Source: Candidatus Woesearchaeota archaeon CG10_big_fil_rev_8_21_14_0_10_44_13
GTDB taxonomy: Archaea; Nanobdellota; Nanobdellia; Woesearchaeales; UBA12501
Length of the DNA: 33,296 nt
Assembly: GCA_002762985.1 (NCBI GenBank)
Contig: PCXZ01000015.1
Span: 1-33,296 of the forward strand
Direction of reading: 5' to 3'
Under the pieces are notes generated by a model. The model had not been told where the DNA came from, did no database searches, and was given only the letters and a program-made list of their open reading frames with translations. The position numbers and the translations under genes are program-made. This document shows, one piece after another, positions 7,433 through 23,396 of the stretch. Position 1 is the stretch's first letter. Each line of letters starts with the position of its first letter.

Positions 7433-7565
7433 ACTGGACAGGGATTGGGCATGGATTCTGGATAAATACCAATAAGAAAAGATAGAGATATGCCAAATAA
7501 CGGAAAATATTTATAGTGGTTGAAGATTATATGAGTTAGATTAAGGGAAACGAGGCAATGATAAG

Positions 7566-8009
7566 ATGGTTTATGGTTTAAGGGAATCTGACAAGCATTT
7601 CTTATGGTCATTAATTGGTGCGATAGGGATAATACTTTTCTGGAGAGGGATATGGGGGGGCATAGATATACTGCCTTCTCCATTGGACAGGCCAGAGCTG
7701 AGCTTTTTCCTTGGGCTTGCAATCCTCACATTCTCGGGCCTGATATTCAAGGAATTCGACCCTTTGGGCGGGCTGGAAAAGGGGGTTATTGACGTGCTGC
7801 ATATGATCCAGTCTCATCCCGAAAAGAAGGATTACATGATAACCTATCACGACAAGCTCAACAAGAAAGATGTCAATATCAGGGCAGATGACATAAAGCA
7901 GTTCGAGAAAAGCATGCTGCTCATACATGAGGGCGGAAAGGAGATCTTCATCCCGCTGCATAGGATAAAATCAATCCATAAGAAAGGGGAAGTCATCTGG
8001 AGGATGTGA
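7566..8009 (+). CDS. Two-TM protein with MJ1316/DUF504-like domain
   Basis: 147 residues. Two hydrophobic segments (about 13-30 and 44-61) form a hairpin anchor, followed by a soluble domain from about 73 to the end. This domain contains the hallmarks of the UPF0248/DUF504 family (MJ1316 domain): ITYHDK, a central strand region (INIRADDIKQF-like spacing before a hydrophobic LLIHEGG strand), then IPLHRI (129-134) and a terminal GEVIWRM. The family has been proposed to recognise cyclic or processed RNA ends; that function is from the literature and not shown here. Usual members are small soluble proteins, so the membrane anchor is unusual. Start ATG at 7566 has GAGG about 8 nt upstream and a TATA-like AATATTTATAG around 7505. 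The domain call is by eye and moderately sure. Confidence 0.65.
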   Translation: MVYGLRESDKHFLWSLIGAIGIILFWRGIWGGIDILPSPLDRPELSFFLGLAILTFSGLIFKEFDPLGGLEKGVIDVLHMIQSHPEKKDYMITYHDKLNKKDVNIRADDIKQFEKSMLLIHEGGKEIFIPLHRIKSIHKKGEVIWRM

Positions 8010-20907: not shown

Positions 20908-20983
20908 AAAAAAATGCATGATTCCGGAAAGGTTCCGGTATAAAAGAGGAAGGCATAAAAAGAAAGAAAAATTGATTGTTTTA

Positions 20984-21009
20984 ATGAAGATCAAAGATAT
21001 CCCTTTAGA
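20984..21009 (+). repeat. 26-bp direct repeat encoding MKIKDIPL, copy 1
   Basis: Begins at the ATG of the DUF1016 gene. Matches 22064-22089 with two mismatches, both third-position A/G changes. Encodes MKIKDIPLE/D, the typical beginning of RadC-family proteins. Confidence 0.85.
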
Positions 21010-22067
21010 GAACAGGCCAATAGAGAGGTTTTTTAGGGAAGGGGTTATAGAAAATAGGGATATGGGAAAAAGTGAGTTTTTTATCAGAGTCAGAGATATC
21101 AAATCAATAATCCGTAAAGCGAGATATGATGCTTTTAACGCTGTGAATGCAGAAATGCTGAAAAGCTTACTATGAGATCGGCAGGAAAATTGTTGAAGAA
21201 GAGCAAAAAGGCGGGAAAAGAGCAGGATATGGTGAAAAGCTCATTGAGAGTTTATCCGTTGAATTGATCAAAGAATTCGGAAAAGGATTCAGCCTGACTG
21301 CTTTAAAGAATATGAGGATATTCTATACTGTTTATAAAGATAAGATTGGTCAGTCAGTGACTGACGAATTCTTCAGGCTGTCATGGACCCATTATTGCGA
21401 GCTGATCAAGATAAAGGATGGGGTAAAAAGGAGATATTTCGAAAAATATGTCATTTCCGAGAATTTGAGCGTCAGGGACCTGAAGAGGCAGATGTATTCC
21501 CTCCATTATGAAAGATTGCTCATGAGCAAAGACAGGAAAGCCCTGATAGGATATGAAAGGAGAGGGAATATCCCATCAAAGACCGAGGAGCTGATCAAAG
21601 ACCTGTATATCCTTGAATTCCTTGATCTGGATGAGAGAAAGACGTACACTGAAAAAGAGATTGAGACAAGGATCCTGGATGACCTGCAGAAGTTCCTGCT
21701 TGAGCTGGGGCAGGGGTTCAGCTTTGTCGCAAGGCAGAAGAGATTTACGATCGACAATGACCATTTCTATATCGATCTGCTGTTCTATAATATCCATCTG
21801 AAATGCTATGTTGTCATTGAACTGAAAACTTCAAAATTCAGGCATGAAGATGCCGGGCAGATAAATTTCTATCTCAATTATGTAAAGAGGGAACTGAATA
21901 AAGAGGGTGACAATGAGCCGATAGGGATAATACTCTGCACTGAGAAGAATAAAGTGCAGGCGGAGTACGCAGCTGCAGGGATGTCGAATAAGATGTTTGT
22001 ATCGAAGTATAAGCTGTATCTGCCAAGCAAGGAAGAATTAGAGAGAGAAGTCAGGAGATTGTTATGA
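20984..22067 (+). pseudogene. DUF1016/YhcG-type PD-(D/E)XK nuclease, frameshifted
   Basis: Two frames make one family member. The first (to 21175) ends SIIRKARYDAFNAVNAEMLKS; the second resumes at about 21168 with YYEIGRKIVEEEQKGGKRAG, YGEKLIESLS and the family motif GKGFSLTALKNMRIFY, so one extra T at 21167-21168 breaks the frame. The catalytic domain is complete: FYIDLLFYN (Asp), VVIELKTSKF (E-x-K), AGQINFYLNYV. The family includes YhcG and other nucleases often near restriction or toxin genes; the function is not established. The first residues, MKIKDIPLENRPIERFFREG, resemble the N-terminus of RadC rather than DUF1016. The frame is open from 20918, but the ATG at 20984 fits that RadC-like start. 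A sequencing error cannot be excluded. Confidence 0.8.
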
Positions 22068-22396: not shown

Positions 22397-22807
22397 ATGA
22401 CAGGGAAAAATGAAGAGATAATCAAAGAGGTTTTAGATGAGATAGAATCATCCTTAAAGGATCCAAAAGGGATTGCAGCGCACCAGAGAAGGCTCGCTTT
22501 CCTTCTTTCATTAGGGGTTGTCTCCATCATCGAGGATTACCTGCAGAGGAGGGTGGTGCTGAAATCCGGGGCAAAAATCAACCATCTGTGGCTGAAAAAA
22601 AAGAAGGAGAATGCCAAGACCCTCATTTCAAAGCAGATTACCTGCCAGATTGACAGCCTTGAGAAGATTGACGGATTCCTGGAAACCGCATACTCGCTCG
22701 AAAAGGAAAGGAACAGCCTTGCTTACGGCAAGAAAGTGTCAGATGATGAATTGAAGGAAAAGATAAGCCAGTTCTTGAAGTTCAAGAAGGAGGCGGAGAA
22801 TGCTTAA
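22397..22807 (+). CDS. HEPN-domain protein of an MNT/HEPN pair
   Basis: 136 residues, all helical. It resembles archaeal HEPN proteins paired with a minimal nucleotidyltransferase: an N-terminal helix pair, a conserved LAFLLSLGVVSIIEDYLQRR helix, a basic segment, and the final HEPN helix with EKERNSLAYGKKVSDDELKE (102-120). In ribonuclease HEPNs this position is R-x4-6-H; here Arg105 is followed by Tyr110 where His is expected, so nuclease activity is uncertain. It overlaps the MNT gene by 8 bp, meaning co-translation. The TATA box is about 40 bp upstream, and the leader carries the fourth operator copy. Likely role: toxin or antitoxin partner (inference). Confidence 0.75.
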   Translation: MTGKNEEIIKEVLDEIESSLKDPKGIAAHQRRLAFLLSLGVVSIIEDYLQRRVVLKSGAKINHLWLKKKKENAKTLISKQITCQIDSLEKIDGFLETAYSLEKERNSLAYGKKVSDDELKEKISQFLKFKKEAENA

Positions 22808-23396
22808 GGCCTATGCCAGTTATTTTGCATCATATCTCCTTGCAAATCTCGGTGGTATGGGCAATATAAAAAGGATAATATTATTCGGCTCTGCAGCCAG
22901 AGGAGAAGCGACAAAAGAGAGCGACATAGACATTTTCATAGAGATCAAGAAAGAGAATAAGAAATTCACAAAAATCATCGAAAAGATGCTTGATGATTTC
23001 TATGAAAGCAGGGAAGCATTGTATTTCAAGGCCAAAAAAGCGGATAATAAGATAAATCTCATCATCGGGAAACTGGAAGAGTGGAAAGATCTCAAGAAGA
23101 GCATAGAAAGCACAGGCATCGTGCTTTACGGACCATATTCTTCTTATGATGTAAAAGGAAGGAAATATTCAATGATCTCATGGGACAGCATAGGCGAGAA
23201 CAGGGGGGCATTCCTGAACAAGATGTATGGTGTCAGGATAAATGATAAATCATACAAGGGGCTTGTCGAGAAGTCAGGCGGCAGGAAGATAGGCAAGAGC
23301 TCAGTGATGGTGCCTGTTGAGAACAGGGAGGACGTGATAAAGCTCCTGAGATACCATAAGGTCAATGCCAGGATATCTGATGTCTATGCTGAATAG
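22800..23396 (+). CDS. MNT-type nucleotidyltransferase of an MNT/HEPN pair
   Basis: 198 residues. Residues about 20-110 form a Pol-beta-type minimal nucleotidyltransferase: ILFGSAARGEATKESDIDIF contains G-S (30-31), the Arg-Gly pair and the two catalytic Asp (Asp42, Asp44). Residues about 115-198 are an extra domain (LYGPYSSYD..., NKMYGVRINDKSYKGLVEKS, KSSVMVPVENREDVIKLLRY) seen in archaeal nucleotidyltransferases but not in the short MntA type. MntA-type enzymes silence HEPN toxins by AMPylation; whether this enzyme modifies its neighbour is inferred only from the pairing and 8-bp overlap. Confidence 0.82.
   Translation: MLKAYASYFASYLLANLGGMGNIKRIILFGSAARGEATKESDIDIFIEIKKENKKFTKIIEKMLDDFYESREALYFKAKKADNKINLIIGKLEEWKDLKKSIESTGIVLYGPYSSYDVKGRKYSMISWDSIGENRGAFLNKMYGVRINDKSYKGLVEKSGGRKIGKSSVMVPVENREDVIKLLRYHKVNARISDVYAE

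Follow-up and report, generated by a model that had tools for sequence, protein, structure and literature searches.

What would a domain proposed to recognise RNA ends be doing behind a membrane anchor? The question is raised by one gene in the stretch of Candidatus Woesearchaeota DNA analysed here (hereafter the window, 33,296 nucleotides in full), an open reading frame with an ATG start at positions 7566..8009 of the plus strand that encodes a protein of 147 aa (P0001). A sequence-only reading had described it as a membrane-tethered MJ1316/DUF504-like protein, and the frame lies where that reading put it, with all three of the motifs it had pointed out (ITYHDK at residues 92-97, IPLHRI at 129-134 and GEVIWRM at 141-147). 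MJ1316, an RNA-end domain of archaea and eukaryotes, owes its assigned function to prediction. In the literature its RNA-end role is presented as a prediction (Burroughs and Aravind, 2016, via PMC6514570), the recognition of RNA 2',3'-cyclic ends as a proposal, and the eukaryotic MJ1316 domains as fused to RNA-repair or release-factor domains (PMC6514570). The window protein, like these eukaryotic fusions, carries the MJ1316 domain as a module, but its partner is a membrane anchor rather than an RNA-repair or release-factor domain.

The C-terminal half is an MJ1316 domain

The whole protein matches the Pfam profile PF04457 with an E-value of 8e-10 (39.7 bits, against a curated cut-off of 26.3), residues 76-146 (positions 7791..8003, plus strand) aligning with profile positions 6-74 of 75. 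In a profile-profile comparison by hhalign with standalone archaeal MJ1316 proteins, the probability was 99.2% and the E-value 1e-19. The profile search proposed in the sequence-only reading thus returned a significant match rather than none, and the assignment of the C-terminal half to PF04457 holds up in both profile tests. A genome-wide search at E <=0.001 recovered the fusion gene at its own coordinates (3.7e-10) and no other PF04457 match in the 1.5 Mb of the genome; of 14 control genomes, two (M. jannaschii and S. acidocaldarius) gave a match in the same search. Among 44 family members, 41 match PF04457 at E <=0.01 and the other three do not. The protein reaches 27.8 bits with the NCBIfam equivalog PRK04257 (NF003272), under the 92-bit cut-off, and is therefore not assigned to that equivalog. 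No convincing solved relative was found by sequence (best E-values 0.47, 0.12 and 0.024), nor any viral relative in viral_contigs, with either the fused or the standalone alignment as query. We found no published report of a membrane-fused MJ1316 domain in the literature searched, which lacked most subscription journals.

A FWRG-x-W hairpin as membrane anchor

Two helices precede the domain, at residues 7-35 (7584..7670, plus strand) and 43-64 (7692..7757, plus strand). Both are predicted by AlphaFold and coincide with hydropathy peaks of 1.69 and 1.73 (19-residue Kyte-Doolittle window). A FWRG-x-W motif occupies residues 25-30, inside transmembrane helix 1; in 44 sequences W26 and G28 are invariant and W30 is conserved in at least 90%. 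The loop between the helices is free of lysine and arginine in 55 of 70 fused proteins, and the flanks carry on average 2.3 and 2.7 of these residues. Given this distribution and the positive-inside rule, both ends of the protein would be placed in the cytoplasm, an N-in/C-in topology with the MJ1316 domain on the cytoplasmic side of the membrane.

The same two-helix hairpin is found in small membrane proteins of archaea and CPR bacteria and in the Fuseless family (PF15993), which owes its name to a fly synaptic protein. The standalone archaeal proteins stop after the hairpin, and one of them (L027) passes the Fuseless profile (E 4e-11, 43.3 bits). The window protein scores 13 bits against the same profile, below the 25-bit cut-off, and a Fuseless search of its genome gave no match; 2 of the 44 relatives match at E <=0.01 (best 1.4e-4), and 10 genomes of a set of 99, made up of the window's and 98 relatives, have a Fuseless match. 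Several proteins from records titled Patescibacteria, Nomurabacteria or bacterium have, as judged by eye, a charged, coiled-coil-like tail behind the hairpin where the window protein has its barrel (L160, L161, L162, L165, L169, L170 and L171). L162 was considered as a bacterial MJ1316 fusion on account of a match over query residues 13-112, and was rejected as a hairpin with a charged tail. Taken together, the FWRG-x-W hairpin looks like an exchangeable anchor.

Predicted fold of the tethered domain

AlphaFold modelled the whole protein with a pLDDT of 83 and a pTM of 0.58, and the domain alone, with 72 sequences, with a pLDDT of 90.8 and a pTM of 0.80. The latter model consists of a helix followed by a predicted seven-strand small beta barrel at residues 90-146 (7833..8003, plus strand). 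In the model and in the alignment to standalone MJ1316, a helix at residues 66-83 (7761..7814, plus strand) leads into the barrel and replaces the 'NKIxWD' segment of the standalone proteins. The nearest solved fold according to VIA is SspB (Z 8.2, rmsd 2.9, 79 aligned), followed by a designed SH3-like barrel (Z 7.5), WYL/PafBC (6.8) and Hfq (6.2, 62 aligned); Foldseek relates the domain model to Hfq with a probability of 1.00 and an E-value of 5e-3. Identity is at most 17% among the fold matches quoted. Since VIA Z values of about 8 can still be background, an Sm/Hfq/SspB-like small barrel is likely rather than proven for the MJ1316 domain. The model resembles Hfq/Sm, SspB and WYL barrels in its predicted N-terminal helix and small beta barrel, but P0001 has no Hfq or LSM sequence-family match at E-values up to 1 in the Pfam search. 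The fold says little about RNA, because the best Z belongs to SspB, which is a peptide-binding adaptor and yet the closest fold, and because designed SH3-like barrels outscore Hfq; a shared fold alone shows no function.

A barrel like the MJ1316 domain was also seen in a Hyperionvirus protein of the endonuclease/exonuclease/phosphatase (EEP) family (BFVD A0A3G5AFW8; 21% identity over 76 columns, TMq 0.62, E 5.6e-3), which is possibly a viral MJ1316 RNA-repair fusion.

The fusion is a conserved family of one archaeal order

The survey of membrane-fused homologues found the fusion in 52 of the 352 genomes of the window's order, across 12 family codes, and a PF04457 match of any kind in 110. The MJ1316 domain behind a two-helix membrane hairpin, as first read from the window, accordingly recurs as a conserved family. 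Fifty-six loci with longer PF04457 frames (L062-L117) yielded 69 fused proteins, from 47 genomes other than the window's; the 52 are these 47 together with G000, G266, G127, G130 and G216. (Codes such as f63, g2 and G000 are those of our analysis for family, genus and genome, G000 being the window's genome, and names are taken from record titles.) Eight loci (L069, L108, L111, L112, L113, L115, L116 and L117) were left out of the 69-protein set, as the anchor was not seen or the domain was standalone; L064 also lies outside it, though it carries a fused frame, and its genome G266 is counted among the 52. At L116 (G201:C110:1367-2977), an MJ1316 domain breaks off after IPLHR and continues in frame as a GatE-like protein (536 aa, named by eye), either a real fusion or an assembly error.

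When the window's genome and 98 relatives were searched with the protein, the 28 genomes with a match were a mixture of full-length fusions, standalone MJ1316 proteins and standalone hairpins. When 371 genomes drawn from the phylum were searched with the family profile, none outside the order was listed with a full-length fusion; the 25 class-level genomes with a match are listed with partial ones, those of G407, G438 and G513 lying in longer frames. A pattern scan that took a single genome for each species returned 55 loci, 43 of them full length or nearly so and all in records titled Woesearchaeota, Nanoarchaeota or archaeon. The other 12 have the hairpin without an MJ1316 domain and include Patescibacteria, Nomurabacteria and one Nitrosotenuis. 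Within the window's own family, two of ten genomes have the fusion, four a standalone domain only, one a hairpin only and three neither. The fusion and a standalone MJ1316 protein occur together in 8 of the 52 genomes (three of these judged by frame length alone), and the fusion is therefore not merely a relocated copy of the standalone gene.

In a domain tree built on 80 columns only, one branch separates the 70 fused domains from 39 standalone ones (SH-aLRT 99), the standalone set having been reduced from 47 by dropping eight loci with duplicate domains. The full-length gene tree tracks the family codes with the minimum possible number of label changes, 11, which fits vertical inheritance. 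The anchor perhaps acquired its MJ1316 domain once, within the window's order. Six pairs of fused proteins exceeded 70% identity; dS was saturated in three, and the other three gave dN/dS values of 0.03 (the closest pair), 0.06 and 0.07, which places the fused proteins under purifying selection. A chance profile match or a mis-joined frame has in its favour only the sub-threshold PRK04257 score, and we regard it as ruled out, with next to no probability left to it, by the fused frame in 52 genomes, the low dN/dS of three pairs and the hhalign E-value.

Residues kept, lost and gained in the fused clade

The window domain is homologous to standalone MJ1316 (PF04457, UPF0248, COG1531) over nearly its full length and retains the Y-x-D and IP-x-HR motifs and the terminal tryptophan. 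In the 70 fused domains, Y94 is kept in 97%, D96 in 99%, P130 in 100%, R133 in 97% and W145 in 97%, and H132 falls from 97% in the standalone proteins to 87%. Unlike the standalone proteins, however, most of the fused clade has lost positions that are near-invariant in the 39 standalone domains: the tryptophan (92%) and aspartate (97%) of the WD motif, the arginine of 'DR' (87%), now mostly lysine, and the final arginine (95%). The window protein has S83 and a gap in place of WD, K97 in place of the DR arginine and M147 in place of the final arginine. From these losses, the RNA-end pocket may be gone in the fused clade. The proposal of a membrane-bound RNA-end sensor in the sequence-only reading has so far found no support, the MJ1316 role being itself predicted and these near-invariant positions being lost. 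The fused set has also gained conservation, at H84 (80%), P85 (73%), F128 (100%) and E126 (99%, against 74% in standalone domains), and its mean net domain charge is +7.1 against +3.5 for standalone domains, the window's own domain standing at +3.

Gene neighbourhoods differ between families

In the window, the fusion gene is preceded by enolase, 133 nt away and on the same strand, and faced by a prolyl-tRNA synthetase gene. A stretch between enolase and the fusion gene that resembles an archaeal BRE/TATA element when read by eye (CGGAAAATATTTATAG, 7501..7516, plus strand) makes it probable that the fusion gene has its own promoter. A GAGG word resembling a ribosome site, likewise read by eye, stands ahead of the ATG at 7552-7555. 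A pairing with enolase by analogy to the RNA degradosome was considered and rejected: in G007, the nearest relative, the corresponding gene is a different one and lies on the other strand. RtcB was also rejected as a linked partner: a search of the window's genome and 29 relatives, which mostly lack the fusion, gave an RtcB match in 23 of the 30, and in G000 RtcB is on another contig.

Two families have recurrent neighbours, which we named from one tested representative per cluster, the remaining members being assigned by BLAST cluster. In f25, the order AI-2E-type permease, AMP phosphorylase, fusion gene is found at all eight mapped loci, and AMP phosphorylase is directly upstream in all ten genomes with the fusion (eight mapped and two by coordinates). 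The ends of the AMP phosphorylase and fusion genes overlap by 4 nt at six of the eight loci and by 1 nt at one, and are 7 nt apart at the last. The identity of the enzyme comes from one representative (TIGR03327, 600 bits against a cut-off of 535). AMP phosphorylase is common across the order in any case: 180 of 352 genomes exceed this cut-off, and 231 match at E 0.001, as do all 14 control genomes. In Woesearchaeota the enzyme has been assigned to nucleoside degradation (PMC8421398).

In f63, 26 of the 27 loci have the fusion gene duplicated in tandem, one of them with four copies, and the B paralogues form one clade (support 99). As the f63 genomes are related, the 27 loci cannot be counted as so many independent events. 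At 18 of them a pilin-like gene, named by eye and without a Pfam match, follows within 45 nt downstream; its cluster includes some short members (L062, L065 and L066) that perhaps have no more than the signal region in common. No such gene was seen at the eight mapped f25 loci. The C-terminal half of RqcH (NFACT-R) was seen at 18 of the 27 loci, every time downstream and on the same strand, with 491 to 6198 nt separating it from the last fusion gene. At 15 loci there is an endonuclease V gene upstream, on the opposite strand. Elsewhere, the neighbours include LonB in G007 and a pyridine-nucleotide oxidoreductase in f58. Because neighbours differ between families, the fusion family as a whole is tied to no single pathway.

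Two side observations follow. L093 (G241:C19:848-2778) has four fused MJ1316 genes in tandem, followed by a pilin-like gene. Archaeal RqcH seems to be split into two genes in the window's genome (G000:C9:24164-24985 and G000:C15:36097-37206, both on the minus strand) and in 17 further genomes of the order: all 18 genomes searched have the C-terminal NFACT-R half, 17 of them also have the N-terminal half elsewhere, and none reaches the full-length cut-off.

What might the tethered domain do?

We consider the protein best explained as a membrane-tethered, cytoplasm-facing module that binds RNA or nucleotides, a reading whose prospects of being right and wrong we see as about even. The FWRG-x-W hairpin would anchor the MJ1316-type small beta barrel on the cytoplasmic side of the membrane, and the barrel would most likely bind RNA, RNA 3' ends or mononucleotides through Y-x-D, IP-x-HR and its basic surface, thereby retaining RNA fragments, or products of these, at the membrane. 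From there they could be handed over to nucleotide salvage, as the gene pair with AMP phosphorylase would suggest, or alternatively to the ribosome-quality-control machinery, the RqcH C-terminal half being encoded downstream of paralogous fusion genes. A more specific version, in which the protein is a membrane-bound RNA-fragment sensor of Woesearchaeota, strikes us as unlikely. The barrel would then still recognise RNA 3' ends or cyclic nucleotides, produced by RNase damage or derived from scavenged RNA, and gather them at the membrane near NMP salvage (AMP phosphorylase) or ribosome quality control; if true, DPANN archaea would have a branch of RNA repair and turnover located at the membrane.

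The main threat to RNA or nucleotide binding is that the fused clade lacks the WD, DR-arginine and final-arginine residues, which would suit a protein-protein role of the barrel. The MJ1316 barrel may have been repurposed as an assembly module of a membrane complex and have lost RNA binding, with the tandem A/B paralogues and the pilin-like protein building a surface-associated complex; we see this as less probable than RNA or nucleotide binding, yet as a substantial contender. The fused-only conservation of H84, P85, F128 and E126 is in line with such a module, as are the tandem genes and closely following pilin-like genes of f63 and the adaptor SspB as closest fold by Z. It sits less well with the near-complete retention of Y94, D96, P130, R133 and W145 and the somewhat weaker one of H132, with fused domains that are on average more basic than standalone ones, or with the eight mapped f25 loci, where no pilin-like gene was seen. 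A high average basic charge near a membrane might instead reflect a barrel that binds the head groups of acidic phospholipids, or some other ligand in the membrane, any RNA link being ancestral only. We hold this to be improbable, as the IP-x-HR core is kept and two families have RNA-related neighbours.

The reading of the protein as an RNA- or nucleotide-binding module lends itself to experiment. The conserved tethered form, its gene overlap with a salvage enzyme, the A/B pair and a confident model make the ligand of the MJ1316 domain directly testable and, with it, the possibility that archaea turn over RNA at their membrane.

Other features of the window

Three further regions of the window drew our attention. 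Two overlapping frames at 22397-23396 resemble, by eye, a HEPN-type protein and an MNT nucleotidyltransferase, which together are a common toxin-antitoxin pair. A frame at 21264-22067 resembles, again by eye, the nuclease part of a DUF1016/YhcG-type protein, and a small frame at 20918-21175 has a sub-threshold match to the bacterial PH domain bPH_2 (18.8 against 22 bits).
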